Source: Bradyrhizobium sp. CB82 (lineage in GTDB: Bacteria; Pseudomonadota; Alphaproteobacteria; Rhizobiales; Xanthobacteraceae). From it: 64,000 bases of DNA. How positions within the stretch are numbered: the first letter of the stretch is position 1; each line of letters starts with the position of its first letter. The translations under genes and the position numbers were made by a program. Below are positions 40,067 to 61,720 of this stretch, piece by piece. The stretch is taken from positions 1,803,001 through 1,867,000 of the forward strand of contig NZ_CP121650.1 of the NCBI RefSeq assembly GCF_029714405.1, read 5' to 3'. The notes under the pieces are model-generated. The model saw only the letters and a list, made by a program, of their open reading frames with translations. It made no database searches and was not told the origin of the DNA.

Positions 40067-41742
40067 TTACGCCTGCCTGTACCGATACGCCTAACCCCTT
40101 CATTTGCAATGACTTCTTCGGTCGTCCTTTTCGTGGGGAATAGATCGATGCCGCTCTCGATTGCGGAATAACGCGCATACAGACTGATCTCGTAGGGCGC
40201 GCCCGGGGCCGTCGGATGGACTACCAAGCTACCGACGACGTTTTGGAAGGCTAGCCGGGCCTCCGGATCGGCGCGGTCCTCGATCAGCTTGGCGTGGAGG
40301 AGATCGACGCTCCGGCTGAAGCTGGCGAGCGCCGCCGGGTGGAGGGTCATGACATTGCCGCCCGGTAGATGGCGGATGCGCTCCTGTAGGGCCGCCCGCT
40401 CGATCTCCTTCGCCTTGATCGCGTCGGTCAATTCCCTAACCGATCCGTCGCACTCGGCGATAGCGTCGACCAGCCGCTTGATTTGGAGATTGAGCCGATC
40501 GAGTTGCTTTTGTGCGGCCCGCCGCTCATCGCCTTCCTCACGGGCGAGTTTTGCCGCCTCGACCGCCTTAGCCTTGGCTTTCTCTTTCAGAAATTCGGGG
40601 TCGGTCAGATGCGCGTGCATGTGCTTGATCGCGCCGGCCGTCAATTCGTTGAGGTCGTAGCTTTTGGTGTGGGTGCAGGTCTTACGATAGAGCGCGCCGG
40701 AGCAGCCAACCCGCTGACCATTGCGCGAGGAAGCCATGACCGTCATCGGGCCATGGCATGCGCCGCATACGATCAGACCTGACAGCAAACCTTGCTTACG
40801 CGGGATCGTCGCCCGCTTGACATAGCCGCTCGCGCCGAATTTTTCGTGCTGGCGTTTGAGGCGGACCGCATGCGCGGCGTTCCAGAGTTCATCGGAGATG
40901 ACGCGGAGATCGGGCATATCGACTGTGATCAAATCCTCCGGATCGAGGGCGCGGACTTCGCGCTTGCCAGTGGCTGGATTTTTTGGCGCGGTGAAACGGT
41001 TCTTAACGTACTTGCCGATATACAGTTGGTTGTGGAGCAAGCCGCGCTTGGCACCCTTACCTCCGACGATGCCTTGATAATTCCACGCCGGTTGTCCGCT
41101 CGGCGATGGGATTTTGTCTTTCGCGAGGCCGGCAACGATTTGGCGCGGCGTCATCCCGCTCGCGTATTCGGTGAAGATGCGCCGGACGATCTTTGCCTCT
41201 TGCTCATTGATGGCGCGCTTGCCCGGCTGATGCTCGACGCAATCGTAACCATAGGCGGCGCATGTAGTGATCCGCCCTTTCAACGCCGCTTGGTCATGGC
41301 CGCGCTTGACGCGGATGGCAAGTTTTTTGATGAAGTCTTCGTTGCTATGCCCCTCGAACAGCAATTGAAGGTCGCTGACTTCGCCGCTCATGTTGAAGAT
41401 GCGGATGCGGTGAAACTCAAAGCGATCGGCGAGCCAGAACATATCGGCCTTGCGGCGCGATAACCGGTCGGTTGCTTCAACCAAGACCGCAGCAAATTCG
41501 CCGCGCTCAGCGGCCACGAGCAGATCGCGCGTCAAGCCGGGGCGCTCGAAAAGAGAACTGCCCGAGACGGCTCGGTCTGCGTAGTAATGGCGCCTGTCAA
41601 GCTGGAGATTGAGCCGCTTCGCGGCTTTCTCCAGCATCGCGAATTGATCTTCGATCGAGGTGTCCTTTTGCAAGTCGCTGGAATAGCGGGCATACAGCGC
41701 AGCTTTCAGCGGCTTGGCGTCCCGATGGTGATGCTTTGACAT
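40024..41742 (-). CDS. Large serine recombinase (integrase)
   Basis: A 572-residue site-specific recombinase. The resolvase-type catalytic domain contains the nucleophile serine in ALYARYSSDLQKDTSIEDQ; the recombinase domain (KGRITTCAAYGYDCVE, GMTPRQIVAGLA), a zinc-ribbon region (GLIVCGACHGPM ... CSGALYRKTCTHT) and a coiled coil (ARLAREEGDERRAAQKQLDR-like region, residues ~390-460) follow. Such enzymes integrate and excise phages and islands without a large repeat. The reading frame crosses the junction at 40,066 so the last ~14 residues and the stop codon come from the DUF4282 gene. Confidence 0.93.
   Translation of the reverse strand: MSKHHHRDAKPLKAALYARYSSDLQKDTSIEDQFAMLEKAAKRLNLQLDRRHYYADRAVSGSSLFERPGLTRDLLVAAERGEFAAVLVEATDRLSRRKADMFWLADRFEFHRIRIFNMSGEVSDLQLLFEGHSNEDFIKKLAIRVKRGHDQAALKGRITTCAAYGYDCVEHQPGKRAINEQEAKIVRRIFTEYASGMTPRQIVAGLAKDKIPSPSGQPAWNYQGIVGGKGAKRGLLHNQLYIGKYVKNRFTAPKNPATGKREVRALDPEDLITVDMPDLRVISDELWNAAHAVRLKRQHEKFGASGYVKRATIPRKQGLLSGLIVCGACHGPMTVMASSRNGQRVGCSGALYRKTCTHTKSYDLNELTAGAIKHMHAHLTDPEFLKEKAKAKAVEAAKLAREEGDERRAAQKQLDRLNLQIKRLVDAIAECDGSVRELTDAIKAKEIERAALQERIRHLPGGNVMTLHPAALASFSRSVDLLHAKLIEDRADPEARLAFQNVVGSLVVHPTAPGAPYEISLYARYSAIESGIDLFPTKRTTEEVIANEGVRRIGTGRRNSSHRPSSSPSTGW
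40055..40075. other. Left attachment junction (attL) in the DUF4282 gene
   Basis: The host-like frame (minus strand FITPT...) breaks exactly at 40066/40067, where element sequence begins. The crossover core of a serine recombinase can be as short as 2-10 bases; candidates lie in GGTGTGATGAATTACGCC. Without the other end the core cannot be fixed. Confidence 0.55.
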
Positions 41743-48574: not shown

Positions 48575-48888
48575 CGCGGCGCTATTCCATCGACGAGGCA
48601 TTGCGACTGCTGGCGAGCGTCGGCGCCGATCCGCGCGATTTTCGCGGCACGCGGTTTTCGCGCTGCCCCATCTGCTCGCCGCATCGCCGGAAGAAATCCA
48701 ATAAATGCTTGTCGATCCGCTCCGAGAGCGACGAGATCTTTTTCCGCTGTTTCCACTGTGACGACTTCCACGGGAGCTATCGCTATGAACACGCTGGCGC
48801 CGCAGCACGTCGAGTTTTTCGTTCAAAGGGGGATATCGCCAGAAACAGCGACGCGGTTCGAGGTCTATACGGGTGCAGTCGTCGGTAA
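48571..48888 (+). CDS. CHC2-type primase zinc-finger protein
   Basis: A 105-residue protein: CPICSPHRRKKSNKCLSIRS and FFRCFHCDDFHG form the Cys4 zinc ribbon of DnaG/T7 gp4-type primases. The last ~35 residues overlap the next gene in another frame and are not conserved-looking. It would recognise primer start sites for the downstream Toprim-helicase. ATG 48571 overlaps the previous stop by four bases. Confidence 0.7.
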   Translation: MTRRYSIDEALRLLASVGADPRDFRGTRFSRCPICSPHRRKKSNKCLSIRSESDEIFFRCFHCDDFHGSYRYEHAGAAARRVFRSKGDIARNSDAVRGLYGCSRR

Positions 48889-50293
48889 ACCGGGCGAGCG
48901 GCACGTCGAGCCGAGCGCGCGCGGCAACGTCATCGCGTATCCGTTTTTCGAGCACGGCCAAGTCGTCAACGAAAAGTATCGCGCCGAGCGCGACGGCGAA
49001 AAGTTCTTTTGGCACCGCAAGGGCGGCAAGCGGACGTTCTGGAATTCGGACGTCCTCGACGATCCGCAGCTTGAGGCGGGCACGCAAGCGCTGGTGATCG
49101 CTGAGGGGTTCGAGGATGCGATGGTCGCGATCGATTGCGGCTGGCCGCTAACCGTCTCAGTGCCCGATGGTGCGCCGCCCGTGCCGAAAGATGGGCGAAT
49201 GGCGCCGCTCGATCCGGAGACCGAGCACACGGGCAAGTTTGAATTTCTCTGGCTCAATCGCGATCGGCTGCGGCGTATCAAGCGGTTCATTCTCGCGGTC
49301 GATGACGACGGGCCGGGCCAGCGCTTGGCGGCCGAGATTGTCCGGCGCCTTGGCGCGGCGCGGTGCATGTTCGTCACCTATCCCGAGGGATGCAAAGACT
49401 TGAACGACGTGCTGCGCAAGCACGGGCGCGAGGCGGTGCATGACGTGCTGCGCACCGCGAAACAATACCCGGTGCGTGGGCTTTACCGGCTGTCGGAGTA
49501 TCCGGCGCTGCCGGCGCTGCAGCCCATCTCGATCGGCTGGCCGCTGTTCGATGGCAGCGTCCCGGGCAACGGATGGATGAAACTGTTCGCGGGTGAGTTC
49601 ATGGTGGTTACCGGCATCCCGAGCCACGGCAAATCGACTTGGGTGCTCAACATGCTTTGGAATACAGCGCGCGACTACGGCTGGCGCGCAGCGATCTTCT
49701 CGCCCGAGATGCCGACCGTCCCGTATCTGCGCGACAAGCTGCGCCGGATCATCGGCGGCGATGACGCCGACCGCCTGATCGAGAGCAATTTCGTTTTCAT
49801 CGACAACGATCCAAACGACGCGGACGAGGACGATATCACGCTGGAATGGATCATCGAGAAAGCCCGCGACGCGGTGCTGCGCGATGGCATCAACGTGCTG
49901 GTGATCGATCCGTGGAACGAGATTGAGCACGCGCGCCTCCGCGACGAAACCACGACCGAATACGTCGGTCGGGCGATCCGCCGGCTAAAGCGCTTCGGCC
50001 GGCAATACGAGGTCGCGGTGATCGTCCTGGCGCACCCGACCAAAGATGTTTTCGAGCACGGCAAGGCTCGTACCGCGACCCTGTACGACATCGAGGGGTC
50101 TGCGCATTGGTTCAACAAGTGCGATCACGGCGTGGTCATCGAGCGCGCGCCGGAGGGCGATCAAGCTACCGTGCATATCGCGAAAGTTCGTTTTGACGAG
50201 ACCGGCTTTAAGGGTGCGATCAGAATGCAATTCGAGGTTCGATCGCAGCGATATCGGCAACTGAGCGAGCAACAGGAGTTTCCGTATGGGTGA
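48785..50293 (+). CDS. Toprim primase-helicase (T7 gp4/Twinkle-like)
   Basis: A 502-residue replicative protein. The Toprim domain shows the Glu motif VIAEGFEDAMVAIDCG and the DxD motif ILAVDDDGPG. The RecA-like helicase has Walker A TGIPSHGKST and Walker B VLVIDPWNEIE, with VIVLAHPTKD after it. It starts at ATG 48785 with GGGAG eight bases upstream. The usual N-terminal zinc ribbon is encoded separately by the upstream gene in the other frame, overlapping by 104 bases. Confidence 0.9.
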   Translation: MNTLAPQHVEFFVQRGISPETATRFEVYTGAVVGKPGERHVEPSARGNVIAYPFFEHGQVVNEKYRAERDGEKFFWHRKGGKRTFWNSDVLDDPQLEAGTQALVIAEGFEDAMVAIDCGWPLTVSVPDGAPPVPKDGRMAPLDPETEHTGKFEFLWLNRDRLRRIKRFILAVDDDGPGQRLAAEIVRRLGAARCMFVTYPEGCKDLNDVLRKHGREAVHDVLRTAKQYPVRGLYRLSEYPALPALQPISIGWPLFDGSVPGNGWMKLFAGEFMVVTGIPSHGKSTWVLNMLWNTARDYGWRAAIFSPEMPTVPYLRDKLRRIIGGDDADRLIESNFVFIDNDPNDADEDDITLEWIIEKARDAVLRDGINVLVIDPWNEIEHARLRDETTTEYVGRAIRRLKRFGRQYEVAVIVLAHPTKDVFEHGKARTATLYDIEGSAHWFNKCDHGVVIERAPEGDQATVHIAKVRFDETGFKGAIRMQFEVRSQRYRQLSEQQEFPYG

Positions 50294-50807
50294 CGTGATG
50301 CTGACGCGGCGCGAACCGCTGAAATTCAATCCGCTTGAGGACGCGGTGATGGATGACGTCCCGCCGAACGTTTGGGATGGCCCGCATGTCGGCAAGCGAT
50401 TGGCCGAGGCGATGCGGACGCTGCGGATGATCCCGATGTCGGCGGTCGCCGGCTTTGGCGGATCATGGCCCGCCTATAGCTACGAATTCGAGGACTTGAT
50501 CGCGCAACAGAAGCAAGGCGAGTTGGAAAAAACGCAACGCATGCAGAACCGCACGCGGTTGCTGCCGTCCTACAGCGACGTGACGCGCATGGAGACGGCG
50601 ATCATTTGGCCGGCGCGATATCTGCGCGGGATCGATCATCTCCTGCTTGCGGTCAATGCGGTTGCATTGGCGCACTCGTTAGAGCGCGACGCGGGGTGGG
50701 TTGCTGTCAAGCGCGGCGGCTACGCCGACACGTGGCGAGCGAATCATGATCGCGGGTGCGATGTTATCGCTGCTGGTCTCCGCGCCGAACATGTTCCGGT
50801 TTTTTGA
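50286..50807 (+). CDS. Phage protein of unknown function
   Basis: A 173-residue protein (MGDVMLTRREPLKFNPLEDA ... IIWPARYLRGIDHLLLAVNA ... WRANHDRGCDVIAAGLRAEH). Recognisable as a type of small phage ORF downstream of replication genes in rhizobial elements, but I cannot name a domain. Its start overlaps the helicase stop by eight bases. Confidence 0.65.
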   Translation: MGDVMLTRREPLKFNPLEDAVMDDVPPNVWDGPHVGKRLAEAMRTLRMIPMSAVAGFGGSWPAYSYEFEDLIAQQKQGELEKTQRMQNRTRLLPSYSDVTRMETAIIWPARYLRGIDHLLLAVNAVALAHSLERDAGWVAVKRGGYADTWRANHDRGCDVIAAGLRAEHVPVF

Positions 50808-51434
50808 ATGATGGACTTTGAAATTCCCCGTGGTGCTCATCGGGAGTACCTGATCGTTTTCGGCGTCGCCGCGATCTATGTCGGCACGATCCCGCGCGGC
50901 GAGCCGTGTATCGTCGGCGCCTCGCGCGATCTCGAAAAGACCTATGAGGCCATGCACGAACGCTGGCCGTGGTCGGAAATCTCTTGCGCGTTTTGGGTGA
51001 AGGATCGCGACACCGCCGAGGCGATAGCGAACGAGGTCAATGGCGTGCTGCCGCATGATCTCGATGGCCGGCTCGCCGTGCGGGCGGAAACCGCGTGCCG
51101 GCTGATCGAGCAAGTCGCCCGCGATTGGAAAATATCGCTGACCAACCACGACGCGGCGATGGCGCGGGTGCGATCGGCGGTGCGGCGGGTCGAGGAAACG
51201 ATCAGCGAAGCAAATGCGCGCGGGGAACTAGCGTGGTTCAATGCCACATACCGGGATTGGCGGATCGAGGCAAAAAAAATCGGCCGCGTCATGAGCTACG
51301 CAGAAGCGCTCGCGCGATTGCGCAAAGAAGTCACTAAGCGACTCATTACACTCGACATTCTCGATTTCGGCACTGATTTACTCCCAGCGATCTTTCCCGA
51401 TTTACGCAAAGCGGCCCGGAAAAATTTACGTTGA
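50808..51434 (+). CDS. Phage protein of unknown function
   Basis: A 208-residue protein with an N-terminal globular part (YLIVFGVAAIYVGTIPRGEP, CIVGASRDLEKTYEAMHERW) and a helical C-terminal half. The N-terminal pattern is GIY-YIG-like in outline (IYVGT), but the conserved catalytic residues are not clear, so I leave it unnamed. It directly abuts the preceding gene. Confidence 0.6.
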   Translation: MMDFEIPRGAHREYLIVFGVAAIYVGTIPRGEPCIVGASRDLEKTYEAMHERWPWSEISCAFWVKDRDTAEAIANEVNGVLPHDLDGRLAVRAETACRLIEQVARDWKISLTNHDAAMARVRSAVRRVEETISEANARGELAWFNATYRDWRIEAKKIGRVMSYAEALARLRKEVTKRLITLDILDFGTDLLPAIFPDLRKAARKNLR

Positions 51435-51531
51435 CGGGCCGGAATTTGGACGGTTTTCTACGCGCGCACGCCCGATGTGCACAGCTATGCCCGCATCGAG
51501 GACGCTTCACTACGCGAACGAAACACTTTGA

Positions 51532-51562
51532 ACCGATCTCGGCGGCGAGGTCGGTCTTTTTT
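51532..51562 (+). terminator. Rho-independent terminator
   Basis: ACCGATCTCG, loop GCGG, CGAGGTCGGT followed by CTTTTTT. It stands after the second unknown protein and eight bases ahead of the tail-type gene, so it would end the replication operon. Confidence 0.8.
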
Positions 51563-51569
51563 GTGCCCC

Positions 51570-52154
51570 ATGATCCAAGTCGAATTTGACACGGCTGATT
51601 TCACCGGTCGCGCGATGGAGCTCGGCGCGGTTGCGGATCAACTGCCGTACATCCTCGCGCGCTCGCTCAACGATGCGGCCGATAGAACGCGGTCGTATCT
51701 GATCGAAAAGACGTGGCCGACATCGATCAGTGCAAAGAACCGCTCATTCATCGGCGCCGCGCTGACCACCCGTGGCGCCAGGGCGAACAAGTACGACTTG
51801 CGCGTCGAGATTTACGACAAGCTCGGGCGGGGCAATCTGATGCTGCATGCGAAGGGCGGCACGCGGCGCGCCAAGGGCGCTAATCTCGCGATCCCGTCGT
51901 CCGCGAACGTCAAGCGCACCGCGAGCGGCGCGGTCTCGCGTAGTCAAACGCCGCGCGCGCTCGGTGACAAGGCGGCCCGGCGTGGCCGTTTCCTGTTCGC
52001 AAAAGGCAAGATGGTCTACACGCTCGATCCGGCCGTGCCGATCAAGCGCGATGTGCCGTTCTATCAGGATTTCACCAACACCATGCGACGAGCGATCCTC
52101 GAAAGCTTGCCGCGAAACGTCGCGCGCGCGATGGCAACGCGGCGCCCTCGATAG
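51570..52154 (+). CDS. Minor tail/head-tail connector-type phage protein
   Basis: A 194-residue basic protein: LPYILARSLNDAADRTRSYL, ISAKNRSFIGAALTTRGARA, LRVEIYDKLGRGNLMLHAKG, ending VPFYQDFTNTMRRAILESLP. The pattern matches a family of phage minor tail or tail-completion proteins (lambda Z-like in style). It is the only virion-type gene in the window. Start ATG 51570, directly after the terminator. Confidence 0.7.
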   Translation: MIQVEFDTADFTGRAMELGAVADQLPYILARSLNDAADRTRSYLIEKTWPTSISAKNRSFIGAALTTRGARANKYDLRVEIYDKLGRGNLMLHAKGGTRRAKGANLAIPSSANVKRTASGAVSRSQTPRALGDKAARRGRFLFAKGKMVYTLDPAVPIKRDVPFYQDFTNTMRRAILESLPRNVARAMATRRPR

Positions 52155-52165
52155 GAGCGCGCAAC

Positions 52166-52654
52166 ATGGAAATGCACGTCTATCACCACATCGTTGTGGA
52201 TGATCCGATTGGCCGGCTGATCGTGGCGCATCTGGCCGACATCAACGACCGTATCGCCGCGCTCGCAACCAAAGTAACCAGATCGGAGAATGCAATGGCA
52301 CTCAGCATCCGAGACCTTCAAGACCAAGCCGCCGCCACCTTGCAGCAATTGCAGGCGGAAACCGATGTCGCCAACGCGGTCAAGAAAGTGGTCGATGATC
52401 AGAACGCGACGATCGACTCGCTCAAAAAGCAGGTCGATGATCTTGTCGCGGCCGGCGGCGCGAGCCCAGCCGACTTGCAGCAGCTTTCGGACACGCTGCT
52501 GTCGATCAAAAATCTCGATACGTCGAACGCGCAGATCGTGGCGTCTGCGGTCACGGCCGGCACTCAGCCGCCCGGGCCGCCGCCGGGCACGACTACCGGC
52601 ACTGAGACTGGCACGAGCACCGATCAAACCAGCACGGGGCCTCAAGCCGGCTAG
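52166..52654 (+). CDS. Coiled-coil phage protein
   Basis: A 162-residue protein with a probable coiled coil (~45-115: LQDQAAATLQQLQAETDVAN, AVKKVVDDQNATIDSLKKQV) and a Pro/Thr/Gly-rich tail. A stalk- or fibre-like or lysis-associated function would fit the position; there is no direct evidence. Confidence 0.6.
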   Translation: MEMHVYHHIVVDDPIGRLIVAHLADINDRIAALATKVTRSENAMALSIRDLQDQAAATLQQLQAETDVANAVKKVVDDQNATIDSLKKQVDDLVAAGGASPADLQQLSDTLLSIKNLDTSNAQIVASAVTAGTQPPGPPPGTTTGTETGTSTDQTSTGPQAG

Positions 52655-52773
52655 CGAGGCCGCCCTCCCAACGATCGCGCGGGACCGTGCCATCAATCGG
52701 CTCGCTCCCGCCCATCTCGCACAACGGCGCGACTACTAGACAGAATTCTCCTGCGCTAGCGTGCGGTGGGAAC

Positions 52774-52998
52774 ATGACGATTATCGAACTGCTCGAATAC
52801 GTCAAAACGGCTGGTGGTCTTGCAGCGCCGATCTTCGCCATCCTATTTTGGCTTGAGCGGAACGAGCGGCAGGACGCGCAACGGGAACTGAAAGAGGTCG
52901 CCGAGAACTCCGTGGTCGCCATGATCGAACTCAAGGCGGTCGTCGCGCAACTGTCAGCGATATTCGATCCTCACGCGCAATATCGGAACAGGCGATGA
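52774..52998 (+). CDS. Small single-pass membrane protein of the phage lysis-type region
   Basis: A 74-residue protein: MTIIELLEYVKTAGGLAAPI, hydrophobic AAPIFAILFWL and a helical tail. The stop overlaps the next start (ATGA at 52995). Position and topology resemble phage spanin or holin accessory proteins. Confidence 0.55.
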   Translation: MTIIELLEYVKTAGGLAAPIFAILFWLERNERQDAQRELKEVAENSVVAMIELKAVVAQLSAIFDPHAQYRNRR

Positions 52999-53219
52999 CC
53001 CTTTTCGTGCGCTTGATGGAAAAGTTGAGCGGCAAGCCACACCAGCACTACACCGCACAGAAAGTCTCGGAAGCGGCGAGCGATCTCCGGCAAGACGTGC
53101 ATTCGCTTGCGACGAAAATGCGCCCCTATGTCGAGGCCGATGATCCTCTGGTTGCGCTCATGACCGACGTGTTCAACCAGCGGCAAATGCGGAACGGCAA
53201 TGATATACGGTCCGATTGA
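52995..53219 (+). CDS. Small hydrophilic phage protein
   Basis: A 74-residue helical protein (MTLFVRLMEKLSGKPHQHYT ... DLRQDVHSLATKMRPYVEAD). Overlaps both neighbours (52995-52998 and 53200-53219). No domain recognised. Confidence 0.55.
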   Translation: MTLFVRLMEKLSGKPHQHYTAQKVSEAASDLRQDVHSLATKMRPYVEADDPLVALMTDVFNQRQMRNGNDIRSD

Positions 53220-53634
53220 CGTGAATTTCTATCTGGAAACCGTCAACGGGACGATCGTCATTCTGCTTGCGACCGCCCTTGCGTTCCTCTCGCTCTACAT
53301 TGTCCAGCAAAAGCAGGCGCTCAAGCTGGCGTGGTGGAAATGCCTAACCGATCCACCACCCGGAATCGCGCTGGCGCTGCCCATGGCTGCGATAAAGGCC
53401 GGGCTTGTCCTCACGCGCGGCACGCTTTGGGCGTGGCGAGAATTCGGCGGCGAGCAAATGACCGGGTGGCAACTCGATCTCGTGCTAACCGGCACTGCCG
53501 TCACGGCGCTGGGCGCATTGTCGTTGGTTCGGGTGCTGTCGCGCGCAAGGTTTGGCGATTGGCCGTGGATCATAAGTGCGATGTTGGTGGTGATTTACAT
53601 CACCGAGAAAAGCATCGAGCAATGCCTGGCATGA
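53200..53634 (+). CDS. Phage membrane protein (holin-like)
   Basis: A 144-residue protein with three hydrophobic segments (TIVILLATALAFLSLYIV, LDLVLTGTAVTALGALSLV, WIISAMLVVIYIT). A three-segment small membrane protein at the end of the right arm suggests a holin or similar, but no endolysin is present nearby to support it. Confidence 0.55.
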   Translation: MIYGPIDVNFYLETVNGTIVILLATALAFLSLYIVQQKQALKLAWWKCLTDPPPGIALALPMAAIKAGLVLTRGTLWAWREFGGEQMTGWQLDLVLTGTAVTALGALSLVRVLSRARFGDWPWIISAMLVVIYITEKSIEQCLA

Positions 53635-53751
53635 TCCAGCACCGGCCGGGTCGGCCCCTGACAGGACAGGAAACTAAAACATATGCGAGCTCGCCCACGG
53701 CGGCCGTTCACGGCCGGAGAACAACGCAAGTAGTCCTTGCTCTTCATTGTT

Positions 53752-53949
53752 TCATCTTGGCGGCTGTAGCCCGGGCGAGGTCAGCCACTCCGTCATATGG
53801 GCTGCGGTTTCGGCGTATCGCGCCCTGCGGAGCAAAGCCTCTCTTTCGGCACCTGGGGGAAGTTGTTTAGCCCGTTGGCGTAGCTCTTGGGCTTCATCGG
53901 CGAGTCGCACTTCAAGTGCCTGTGCATGTTTCACTCGACGTCGTTCCAT
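53752..53949 (-). CDS. Small conserved rhizobial protein
   Basis: A 65-residue helical protein: MERRRVKHAQALEVRLADEA, QELRQRAKQLPPGAEREALL, RRARYAETAAHMTEWLTSPG. I recognise this as a frequent small protein of Bradyrhizobium genomes (ends SPGLQPP). No function known. It is unlike the phage genes beside it and marks non-phage cargo. Confidence 0.75.
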   Translation of the reverse strand: MERRRVKHAQALEVRLADEAQELRQRAKQLPPGAEREALLRRARYAETAAHMTEWLTSPGLQPPR

Positions 53950-54381
53950 ATCCCTTCTCCAGGCTCAGACCCTGCCCGGGACGGACTCTTAACGGTACAC
54001 GACATAGCGGAGTTCCGGGAACATTCTCGAACCGGCCGGACAGCGCCCAGCTGGACCCTAGCGGGAATTTCGGTGGTTCCCCTAGGGTGCAAAAATTAAA
54101 TGCGGGTACGCGGGACCGCCCGCCTTTAGCGTATTTCGGGGTCGCGTTTTTGGCCTTTGGTTCCTCGCAAAATCCCCCGTCAGCGGGGCTAGCCAGGGCA
54201 TGTATATCGACCGTTCGGCCTCGCCCTTCGAGCTGGGGCGGTCGGGGATCCTCCTTTGTATTCGCGAAGAATGATCGCCGAGGCATCCACTCGATAGCTT
54301 CAGGCGAGCGGTTCGTTTTCTTAGGAGCGCGGTCCAGCTCCAAAGGGGCCCAGCTCTAAGCTAAGCTACACTCAATCCCGC
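53950..54381. other. Gene-poor stretch without recognised features
   Basis: About 430 bases. A minus-strand open frame exists but its protein looks artefactual (Pro/Arg-rich, no domain). I see no RNA gene or clear repeat. Confidence 0.4.
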
Positions 54382-54813
54382 CTATCCCATTGCAGGGGCG
54401 ATGCCCAGTTGTTGCAACATTCCAAGCGTATCCCAAATGTTCCAGCTCTCCACGATCTTGCCGGAAGAAAAGCGATATATCCATATTCCTGGAACCCTCA
54501 CCTTCTTGCCCGTCGCGCGGATACCAGGGAGGTCAGATGTGTGCGTACCCACGCCGGTCCAACGCGCCACAACCGTCTCTCCATCCTCGGCGAGAAGCAT
54601 GGCATCAATGCTCCAATGGGCGTCGGGGAAGCCCGTTTGATAGGTGGAGATCAGTTGCTTCATCCCCTCAGGACCTTGTCCAACTGAGGGATTAGAGGGA
54701 TCGTGATGGGTGTGGTTGGTAGCAAACAGCTCGTCTGCTACACCTAATTTTCTTTCATTACAGACCTCTTCAAAAAGGCGTCGGACGAGGGCCTTATTGT
54801 CTTCTGCTGACAT
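54382..54813 (-). CDS. SnoaL-like ester cyclase/NTF2-fold protein
   Basis: A 143-residue protein: LVRRLFEEVCNERKLGVADE, LFATNHTHHDPSNPSVGQGP, ETVVARWTGVGTHTSDLPGI, GIWIYRFSSGKIVESWNIWD. These are SnoaL/ester-cyclase-family features (NTF2-like fold). Members include polyketide cyclases and many proteins of unknown substrate. Start ATG 54813 with GAGGAG upstream. It runs opposite to the phage right arm and looks like an insertion. Confidence 0.85.
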   Translation of the reverse strand: MSAEDNKALVRRLFEEVCNERKLGVADELFATNHTHHDPSNPSVGQGPEGMKQLISTYQTGFPDAHWSIDAMLLAEDGETVVARWTGVGTHTSDLPGIRATGKKVRVPGIWIYRFSSGKIVESWNIWDTLGMLQQLGIAPAMG

Positions 54814-55013
54814 GGAGGACACTCCTCTGTTAAAGGAATAGGGCAAGTAGGCTAGGGTGCCGGTTTGATCGAGGTCTCGGGGCAGAACGGAAAGCTTGTT
54901 CTTAGCGGAGAACCAGTCAACTGATATTTGAATTCCTGCCGTTACCATCATCGCAGGCCCCAAAGCTCAGAAACCGACAGGGACGCTGACCCTAGCTGCG
55001 GGAAAACCAAATC

Positions 55014-55643
55014 ATGGATGCACTGGCGAGCAAGCCGGCCGTGGAAAGATGGCCGGTTGACCGTTTACGGCCATATGAGCGCAATGCGCGCCGGCATTCG
55101 CCCGAGCAAATCGAGCAGATCGCGGCGTCGATCCGGCAATGGGGCTGGACGATGCCGATTCTCGCGGCCGATGACGGCATGGTGCTCGCCGGCCATGGCC
55201 GATTAGCCGCCGGCAAACTGCTCGGGATGGCTGAGGTCCCCGTCATCGTCGCGCGCGGATGGGGCGATCAGCAAAAGCGCGCTTATGTCATCGCCGATAA
55301 TCGGCTCACCGACGCCAGCGATTGGGATGACGAGATGCTGCGGCTCGAATTGGCCGACCTCGTGGAAGGCGGTTTCGAGATCGCGCTGACCGGCATTACC
55401 GAGGACGAGCTATCGCGGCTGTCTGTAGGGGTCGGCGAGCTTGAACAGATGCCCGAATTGCCGGACGGCGATCGGTCGCCTTATCGGGACATGACGTTCA
55501 TTCTGTACGGGGAGCAATTCGGGATCGTCGAGCGCGCTATCGCCAAGGCGACCAAGCCGCGCGAGGCGAGCAATCCCAATCGCTCGCCGCAAGGCAATGC
55601 GCTCGCCGCGATCTGCGCAGAATATCTAGAGCGCGTCTCATAA
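55014..55643 (+). CDS. ParB/Srx-fold domain protein of phage type
   Basis: A 209-residue protein. The ParB N-terminal domain reads VDRLRPYERNARRHSPEQIE, SIRQWGWTMPILAADDGMVL, AGHGRLAAGKLLG. The nucleotide-binding box has GHGR rather than the partition-type GERR. In phages this class often lies beside DNA methyltransferases or Mom genes and is not involved in chromosome segregation. The Mom-like gene lies 1.9 kb downstream, with inserted DNA between. Confidence 0.85.
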   Translation: MDALASKPAVERWPVDRLRPYERNARRHSPEQIEQIAASIRQWGWTMPILAADDGMVLAGHGRLAAGKLLGMAEVPVIVARGWGDQQKRAYVIADNRLTDASDWDDEMLRLELADLVEGGFEIALTGITEDELSRLSVGVGELEQMPELPDGDRSPYRDMTFILYGEQFGIVERAIAKATKPREASNPNRSPQGNALAAICAEYLERVS

Positions 55644-55898: not shown

Positions 55899-56305
55899 AT
55901 GATTGACGAACGGACCGTGCCTTATGCCGCTCTTCTTCTTCGGATCACGCTGGGTTTGCTCGCACTGGCCCACGCGGGACTAAAGATCTTCGTGCTTACA
56001 CCGGCAGGCTTCATCAAGTACTTCGGTGGCCTTGGGCTGCCGGAATGGTTTGCGTACGCAATCATCGTGTTCGAGGTACTCGGCGGTGCAGCTCTAATAC
56101 TTGGGGTTTTGGTTCGCTGGATAGCCCTTTTGTTTGCTGGAGAACTTGCCGGGACCATCGTCATGGTGCACGGCGCCCATCACCGATAAGAGCCAGAGCA
56201 ATGGCTGATACGGCCCAAAGCGCGGGAAACTCCCAGCCGCCCCTCGGATTGTAAAAAAGAAATCCCATGGCGCCCTATGCCCTCGTTCGCTCATGGAATC
56301 GGTAA
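55899..56305 (+). pseudogene. DoxX-family membrane protein gene broken by a short internal inversion
   Basis: The N-terminal part is normal DoxX: VPYAALLLRITLGLLALAHA, FVLTPAGFIKYFGGLGLPEW, LGGAALILGVLVRW, GTIVMVHGA. After 56177 the frame breaks and stops (56187-56189). The missing C-terminal part is on the opposite strand of 56178-56268 (MGFLFYNPRGGWEFPALWAV, SAIALALIGD), and after 56275 the plus strand again reads YALVRSWNR and a stop at 56303-56305. Putting the 91-base segment the other way round gives a normal-length DoxX of about 134 residues apart from single added bases at the two junctions. Confidence 0.85.
56172..56274. repeat. Invertible-looking segment between two GGCGCC sites
   Basis: GGCGCC at 56172-56177 and 56269-56274 bound a 91-base segment in reverse orientation relative to the DoxX gene. 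Each GGCGCC is followed by an additional C compared with the reconstructed frame. Six-base palindromic ends are too short for most known invertases. Confidence 0.7.
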
Positions 56306-57564: not shown

Positions 57565-58302
57565 ATGGGACAGGCTAAAGCAATCCGCGTCGCGCCGATC
57601 TCGAAGAAAGATGCAGACGCGCTGATCATCCGGCTGCACTACAGCCACAAGACCGTCAACAATGCTTTCCTCGCGCTCGGCGTCTTTTTGAACGGCCGGC
57701 TTGAAGGCGCGATGACGTTCGGCCCGTCGATGGATAAGTCGAACATCCTTGGGCTCGTGCATGATACCGCATGGAACGGTTTTCTCGAATTGAACCGGCT
57801 GGCGTTCTCGGAAGCGCTGCCGCGCAACAGCGAAAGCCGCGCGCTCTCGATCGCGCTGCGCATGATCAAAAAGCACTATCCGCACATCGAATGGGTGATC
57901 TCGTTCGCCGACGGATGCCAGTGCGGCGATGGGACAATCTATCGCGCGGCCGGCTTCACCTTGACCGGGGTCAAGTTGAACAAAAGCTTGCTCCGATTGC
58001 CCGATGGCTCGGTCACGCACAAGATGACGCAAGTAACCGGAAAGAACCGCGCGGCACATTTCGCCAAAACCGGCGGGTCATGGTCGGGCCAGGGCATGCC
58101 GCTCGACGGCTACCAGATGCGGTATATCTATTTTCTCAATCCCGACGCGCGTGCGCGGCTCGCCTGCAAAGAAATCCCATATGCGGAGATCGAGCGGCGC
58201 GGCGCCAGCATGTATCGCGGGATTGCGCGTGGCAAGCAGGCGATGGCCGAAGCCCCCTCGGCACAGCGGCGCGGCAGCGGCGACCGCCACGCTCCAAATT
58301 GA
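57565..58302 (+). CDS. Mom-like phage DNA-modification protein
   Basis: A 245-residue protein of the Mom family (GNAT-like fold). In phage Mu, Mom changes adenine to N6-carbamoylmethyladenine, protecting phage DNA from restriction. Features: [80 protein letters not shown]. The C-terminal ~45 residues are hydrophilic. A second truncated copy lies 0.5 kb downstream. The start is ATG 57565. Confidence 0.82.
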   Translation: MGQAKAIRVAPISKKDADALIIRLHYSHKTVNNAFLALGVFLNGRLEGAMTFGPSMDKSNILGLVHDTAWNGFLELNRLAFSEALPRNSESRALSIALRMIKKHYPHIEWVISFADGCQCGDGTIYRAAGFTLTGVKLNKSLLRLPDGSVTHKMTQVTGKNRAAHFAKTGGSWSGQGMPLDGYQMRYIYFLNPDARARLACKEIPYAEIERRGASMYRGIARGKQAMAEAPSAQRRGSGDRHAPN

Positions 58303-58793: not shown

Positions 58794-59032
58794 CGCGCTC
58801 TCGATCGCGCTGCGGATGATCAAAAAGCACTATCCGCACGAATGGATCATCTCGTTCGCCGATGGATGCCAGTGCGGTGAATAGCGCGTGGTAAGCAGGC
58901 GATGGCCGGGGCCCCTCTCGGCACAGCGGCGCGGCAGCGGCGACCGCCACGCTCCAAACTGAGGGCAAAAAATGCCTCGGGGCTTGTCGCCCCGGCGTCA
59001 GGTCAGCTTTCGGGGGCGACGCAGACATGAAC
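58794..59032 (+). pseudogene. Second, internally deleted mom copy
   Basis: 58,794-58,880 repeats the intact gene's segment coding [14 protein letters not shown]...[12 protein letters not shown], then jumps straight to the part coding ARGKQAMAGA, the 3' end (AGCGGCGACCGCCACGCTCC) and the downstream flank. Compared with the intact copy, about 290 bases of the middle are missing and a TAG follows the junction. The start of the gene is also absent. Confidence 0.85.
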
Positions 59033-59160
59033 CTGGAAGCAAAACCGGTTGAACCGGTCGAGAATGACCCAAATCGGACGAGACCAGCGGTCCTTTCACT
59101 CGCGAGCACTCGGAGATTGCGATAGTCTAGCCACTGAATGGCAGCCTCCAGCGAGGTCAG

Positions 59161-60379: not shown

Positions 60380-61720
60380 CTCACCTCTTGGGCCTTGCAA
60401 TGATAGGAGAGCTGCAATGGAGCGCTATGTCGGACTTGACGTTTCTTTGAAGCTAACAGCGATCTGCATCGTTGATCGGACGGGAAAGATTGAGCACGAA
60501 GGCGTTGTTCGTTCCGACCCCGAAGCGATCGCAGCATTCATCAAGTCAAACGCGCCGCATGTCGCGCGGATTGGACTCGAAACAGGGGCAACGTCGACAT
60601 GGCTGTGGACCGAGTTGAATAAGCTGGGGCTGCCCGTCATCTGCATCGACGCCAGGCACGCCAAGGCGGTGTTGAAAATGCAGATCAACAAGAGTGACCG
60701 CAACGATGCCGTAGGCATCGCCCGCATCATGCAATGTGGATGGTATAAGGAGGTGTGCGTCAAAGGCCTCGACAGTCATGCGGTAAAGGCTCTCCTCGTC
60801 AGCCGGGCTCTGCTCGTCAAGATCAAGCGGGATCTCGAGAACCAAATCCGCGGGCTCTTAAAGAACCTCGGGCTGGTTATTGGTCCGGCAAAGATGAACG
60901 TATTCGCATTGCGTGCTGCGGAGCTCACCAAAGAGCGGCCGGAACTCGCCCTTGCGGTAACGCCGCTACTCAGCGCCCGAGCAGCCATCGAGCAGCAGAT
61001 TGCTGATCTCGACCGTAAGGTCATGAAGCTCGCACGCAGCAATGCCCAAGTGCGACAGTTCATGACGACACCTGGCATCGGCCCTGTTACGGCTCTTTGC
61101 TTTCTTGCAACGATCGACGACCCTACGCGCTTCAAAAGGTCAAGAAGCGTCGGAGCCTATGTCGGACTAACGACCCGACGCTACGCATCCGGCGAGATCG
61201 ACTGGACGGGTCGAATCTCGAAGTGCGGCGACAAAATGTTGCGCGGCTATCTCTATGAGGCAGCCAATGTGCTGCTCACACGCGTAGCAAAATGGTCAGC
61301 GCTCAAAGCCTGGGGCATTCGGCTTGCAAAGCGAACTGGGCTACGCAAGGCCAAAGTTGCGGTCGCGCGAAAGCTCGCGGTCATTCTGCATCGGATGTGG
61401 ATCGATGGTACCGAATTTAGATGGTCGTCAAAGGAGACCGCCGTGCAAACAGCATAGCAGATAGCGAATTCCCGCCGAGCACCGGCGGGATCCAAGGTCC
61501 CTGCCGGGACGTTGGCGTTGGTGCGATCGCCCCAGGCTTTGCGATGCTCAAAAGGCAAGCGCGCTTCACACATTGATCCGCCAGCGTCATCCTACGCCAT
61601 CATGCGGAGGGCATGCCCCTACCGCGGAGAGAACCATGAACCCGGCAAGGATGTGTTTGGAGAGTCTTGACCGCAGGCCCGGAATTAGAGAACAGCCTAG
61701 GCCCGTCGCGTCAGTGAGCG
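60380..61720. mobile_element. IS110-family insertion sequence, extent approximate
   Basis: The transposase plus the non-coding flanks. The 3' flank (61458-61772) is the longer one and contains short inverted repeats (GAATTCCCGCCGAGCACCGGCGGGATC). IS110 elements are known to encode a bridge RNA in a non-coding end; the borders given here are estimates. Confidence 0.4.
60417..61457 (+). CDS. IS110-family transposase
   Basis: A 346-residue DEDD transposase. The N-terminal RuvC-like domain: YVGLDVSLKLTAICIVD (first Asp), ARIGLETGATSTWLW (Glu), NKSDRNDAVGIARIM (Asp-x2-Asp). The C-terminal PF02371 domain has TTPGIGPVTALCFLATI and the serine-bearing SVGAYVGLTTRRYASGE. The gene is complete. IS110 elements have no long terminal repeats, so the ends cannot be placed by eye; a non-coding flank of ~315 bases follows the gene. 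Confidence 0.94.
   Translation: MERYVGLDVSLKLTAICIVDRTGKIEHEGVVRSDPEAIAAFIKSNAPHVARIGLETGATSTWLWTELNKLGLPVICIDARHAKAVLKMQINKSDRNDAVGIARIMQCGWYKEVCVKGLDSHAVKALLVSRALLVKIKRDLENQIRGLLKNLGLVIGPAKMNVFALRAAELTKERPELALAVTPLLSARAAIEQQIADLDRKVMKLARSNAQVRQFMTTPGIGPVTALCFLATIDDPTRFKRSRSVGAYVGLTTRRYASGEIDWTGRISKCGDKMLRGYLYEAANVLLTRVAKWSALKAWGIRLAKRTGLRKAKVAVARKLAVILHRMWIDGTEFRWSSKETAVQTA

Follow-up and report, generated by a model that had tools for sequence, protein, structure and literature searches.

A doxX gene of Bradyrhizobium sp. CB82 carries part of its C-terminal coding sequence on the opposite strand, and the locus raises the question of whether this order is one state of a switch or the mark of a single event. 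The initial annotation of this DNA had left both readings standing, a small on/off switch or a rare precise micro-inversion. Here, the gene was examined in its window, i.e., the whole stretch of 64,000 nucleotides that was analyzed, and was compared with its relatives in other genomes.

An inverted segment truncates one of two doxX genes

The gene is laid out in three pieces. Residues 1 to 93, ending in MVHGA, are encoded in frame on the plus strand at 55899..56177; they align with P0001, an uninverted DoxX protein of 134 amino acids that a protein search found on one 1001 bp contig, and they belong to the DoxX family by their match to PF07681 (E value of 1.2e-16, 61.6 bits against a cut-off of 23.6). 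Residues 94 to 123 follow on the minus strand, where translation of the 91 bases at 56178..56268 gives the 30 residues MGFLFYNPRGGWEFPALWAVSAIALALIGD; unlike that of intact relatives, the C-terminal part of this DoxX has no shared frame. The plus strand resumes at 56276..56305 with the uninverted tail YALVRSWNR and a stop codon, recognized by identity to the end of P0001. Taken in order, the pieces are identical to P0001 at 92/93, 30/30, and 9/9 residues, an agreement with one separate protein that goes beyond chance, and the coordinates that the initial annotation had given for all three hold. By this comparison, which is at the protein level only, the inner segment is the exact reverse complement of the ancestral one.

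The flip had also been described as ending in GGCGCC on both sides, and such a site does border the segment at 56172-56177 and again at 56269-56274. With the one extra C that follows each, the plus strand presents two copies of GGCGCCC, a left scar at 56172..56178 and a right scar at 56269..56275. As inverted arms, the two sites match over the 6 bases of GGCGCC, and the adjoining bases differ.

In its present frame, the gene runs past residue 93 into HHR and a stop codon at 56187-56189, giving a product of 96 residues (the list of open reading frames also gives this frame from a possible start further upstream). The Pfam DoxX region (residues 11 to 92) is retained; since HHR has replaced the final 41 residues, the truncated protein is predicted to be probably nonfunctional. 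A second doxX gene, intact and 61% identical to P0001, is located at C1:2531509-2531895 of the same genome. Two doxX genes of this subfamily were thus found in the genome; the inversion truncates one of them, and its effect on the organism is probably minor because the other is intact.

Relatives carry the uninverted order

The initial annotation had proposed that homologues would fix the ancestral orientation, and P0001, all DNA relatives, and all loci that could be compared agree on the uninverted one. In each of the 23 relatives with a DNA match (23 of 29 match rows, the remaining 6 being the window itself and 5 matches to other parts of the query), the middle piece and the N-terminal part matched on opposite strands, with the middle match no more than about 20 bases downstream. 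The normal order was found in all 108 motif-fitting loci among the 171 fetched; the other 63, not every one of which was read individually, are duplicate DNA, the locus of the window itself, short matches elsewhere, or misfits to the motif. Moreover, 37 of 37 translated loci, chosen from 80, are open and uninverted.

At the protein level, the motif of the uninverted C terminus fits 116 of the 120 proteins listed (of 200 found), and three more carry it with one substitution when read by eye. The odd one, P0021, proved by eye to be frameshifted and uninverted. Homologues with the same apparent inversion, which had been named as evidence against a flip, numbered zero among the 120 listed proteins and the 108 loci, and the inverted form occurs in one genome only among those searched. 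Judged by sequence, the inversion is derived, because homologues, loci, and DNA relatives carry the uninverted order, and it is recent, because one difference separates the strain from P0001 in 132 aligned residues. The uninverted order of the relatives supports the micro-inversion branch of the earlier reading.

The closest named relative found is in a Bradyrhizobium assembly whose locus (L030) shows 71% identity and has the same contig coordinates as G348, which is listed under the genus that the window's genome belongs to. Searches of 146, 295, 265, 397, and 391 genomes (overlapping sets) returned no DNA relative closer than G348 with its 73% protein identity. The viral contigs searched held no doxX relative, and the one stretch matched there encodes none. 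Two plasmid searches gave 2 and 56 records with a match, the best being 64.8% identical among the rows listed in the 56-record search.

The two scars are together longer than an in-frame ancestor allows

To read the junctions, the bases that stood there before the event must be considered. Directly before YALVRSWNR, P0001 has Gly-Pro rather than Gly-Ala; among the 20 top-ranked proteins, 15 have Gly-Pro here, as do 24 of the 120 listed, and Ala occupies the second position in 5 of 20 and 70 of 120. Since P0001 has Gly-Pro, the form nearest to the strain would have had GGN CCN as its right arm before the event. In that case, GGCGCC on the right probably arose through the event and did not cause it; an ancestral right arm of GGCGCC, encoding Gly-Ala, appears less likely in view of P0001. 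The earlier count of one added base per junction holds for an ancestor in which GGCGCC stood on both sides; it assumes Gly-Ala on the right, where P0001 has Gly-Pro.

The scars are identical, and jointly they exceed by 2 bp the length that an in-frame ancestor spaced like the relatives would have had. This excess is fixed by reading frame and spacing and would fail for a direct ancestor already frameshifted at its tail; P0001 attests the in-frame form only for a very close relative. We then set up 32 hypothetical in-frame right arms, combining any Gly codon with any Pro or Ala codon and keeping the left arm at its present bases, for all of which the 2-bp excess holds by construction. Each was tested for whether it can be divided into a prefix, a reversed segment, and a suffix with no foreign bases. 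Eight arms, those with CCC or GCC as the second codon, were solvable, GGCGCC among them. Seven of these entail the duplication of 3 to 6 left-arm bases and the loss of 1 to 4 right-arm bases, and the eighth, GGG CCC, can be cut with 2 left-arm bases duplicated and none lost on the right (solution 2,0).

Two candidate causes at the DNA level were also weighed. GGCGCC as a signal was rejected by its frequency, which is that of chance (72 sites found versus 75.47 expected; standard deviation, 7.86), and a hairpin-driven origin found no backing in the present strand, whose folding is no stronger than that of shuffled sequence (z = −0.66, equaled by 49 of 200 shuffles).

A template switch is the favored origin

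We regard a one-off intragenic micro-inversion, made by a template switch or an equivalent microhomology-primed repair, as the probable origin of this locus. Inverted order, derived state, scars, and net gain over an in-frame ancestor are read from the comparisons above, and from them we infer the route. A replicating or repairing strand would leave its template inside the left GGCGCC, prime on the opposite strand through a 1- to 3-base match in the Gly-Pro codons some 90 bases ahead, copy backward through the segment as far as the left arm, and rejoin the original template at a 2- to 3-base match. One arm would thereby be partly copied twice and the other usually partly lost, leaving two identical scars and 2 bases more than before. 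The combination found for 7 of the 8 solvable arms, duplication on the left and loss on the right, is the trace expected of two template jumps, and the scars with their 2-bp excess would fit short-homology, nonconservative ends. The match lengths of 1 to 3 bases were worked out by hand and agree with the computed solution counts.

Intragenic inversions of the spacers of inverted repeats are attributed to template switching in yeast in the excerpted text of PMC8604942. Primate micro-inversions, according to the part of PMC8755829 at hand, are flanked by short inverted repeats, 61% of them with 8 or fewer bases per flank; the same part holds template switching to be hard to imagine with arms of 3 to 4 bases and prefers microhomology-mediated break-induced replication, which is counted here in the same class as template switching. 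Several points weigh against a template switch at doxX: matches of 1 to 3 bases are very short, the present strand folds no better than usual, and for the eighth arm, GGG CCC, end joining offers a simpler cut.

End joining, assembly error, and reversible inversion

That last point leads to the strongest competitor, in which two double-strand breaks about 95 bp apart released a fragment that Ku/LigD end joining put back in reverse, with a 2-base overhang filled in at the left break and a blunt right break. An ancestral right arm of GGG CCC would give both scars in this way, by a 2-base duplication on the left with no loss on the right. The route is available in this genome, since four Ku matches over the Pfam cut-off and one match to the LigD polymerase domain were found. 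Codon usage cuts both ways: GGG accounts for 3 of the 16 Gly codons in the gene's own pieces, whereas in relatives it is the rarest Gly codon at this position (3 of 108 loci, none of them among the 6 with Gly-Pro), and with any other Gly codon, fill-in plus nibbling is needed. Furthermore, two breaks so close together are argued to be unlikely in the portion of PMC8755829 consulted, there for distances of about 20 bases. Template switching is favored, and we consider end joining a tentative second, unlikely on balance. As a separate observation, one of the Ku matches lies in an unusually long frame of 645 amino acids (318 to 381 for the other three), and the single LigD polymerase-domain match lies about 2 kb away, in a region outside the window (G000:C1:2305064-2305609 on the minus strand and 2307587-2308339 on the plus strand).

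The occurrence of the inverted form in a single genome would also be expected if the order were an assembly or consensus error. The source genome of 10.14 Mb is, however, assembled into 2 contigs with a completeness of 100, and assembly errors do not, in our judgment, usually produce a flip bounded by two identical 7-base scars; we deem this explanation improbable.

The switch proposed in the initial annotation, a site-specific inversion turning DoxX on and off, fares worse. Its boundaries do carry exact 6-base inverted arms, intragenic invertons are a known class (as cited in the accessible part of PMC11868660), and the genome holds 20 resolvase-family and 42 phage-integrase-family matches. 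One of these, a serine recombinase, is in the window, a resolvase-family match at 41272-41703 on the minus strand in a 578-amino-acid open frame; no further match of either family was found in the window, and this one is 14 kb from doxX, with no serine or tyrosine recombinase match any closer. Against the switch stand also the arms of only 6 bp, the chance frequency of GGCGCC, and the absence of inverted copies among the relatives searched. The added bases had already been taken to argue against a simple reversible exchange, and the arithmetic bears this out: an exchange by a conservative invertase keeps length, whereas the scars are 2 bp longer than the in-frame ancestor, so such an exchange is not supported. 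We regard a reversible switch as very improbable. Continued low-frequency flipping through the very short palindromic arms, with no dedicated recombinase and with two forms of the DoxX C terminus in the population, is likewise very improbable.

Genomic surroundings

A family scan of the surroundings covered ten open reading frames between 48758 and 61457, two of which have no family. They include a DnaB-like helicase with a Toprim domain (48758-50293), a ParB-like protein matched weakly, below the Pfam cut-off (55014-55643), a gene of the Mom family of phage DNA modification (57565-58302), and an IS110 transposase (60417-61457) about 4 kb downstream of doxX, besides SnoaL, DUF6894, a Crp-type regulator, and an ABC substrate-binding protein. 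With its helicase and weak ParB-like match, the stretch at 48758-55643 looks phage-like and is perhaps a prophage remnant, of which the serine recombinase may perhaps be the integrase. The Mom-family gene is followed by a degenerate partial copy at 58794-59039, in which blocks of 25 to 69 bases are repeated at 84 to 98% identity about 660 or 950 bp downstream. No tRNA was found in the window, and no evidence ties either the serine recombinase or the IS110 transposase to the doxX site, where a role for either would be speculative. doxX appears to sit in a mixed, mobile-looking region, where the loss of a redundant gene would be unsurprising.

Discussion

Intragenic invertons, inverted segments inside bacterial genes, were reportedly described by Chanin et al. 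in 2024. The doxX segment likewise lies inverted inside a bacterial gene, and it differs from them in lacking long arms, a length-conserving exchange, and evidence of two orientations. Other parallels are found in eukaryotes. The human/chimpanzee micro-inversions of PMC8755829 share, in the text available, a short, exactly reverse-complemented segment, edges with a few bases of inverted similarity, and a one-off character; they measure 17 to 33 bp and mostly come with no other changes, whereas the doxX inversion, in a bacterial gene, spans about 90 bp and added 2 bp on balance. Like the yeast inversions in the excerpt of PMC8604942, it is intragenic and would arise when a polymerase jumps between short near-repeat arms that become alike; those inversions gave amino acid replacements, whereas this one truncates its gene.

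The literature search returned no paper whose title or abstract opening concerns this doxX locus, which is no proof of absence. Taken together, the inversion represents a known kind of mutation, a clean bacterial example that is ordinary in function. In our judgment, precise micro-inversions are easily overlooked in bacterial genes because annotation shows merely a short open reading frame. Here, a near-identical uninverted protein, P0001, exists, and the scars can therefore be read to within a few bases; set against sister DNA, they could discriminate between template switching and end joining.
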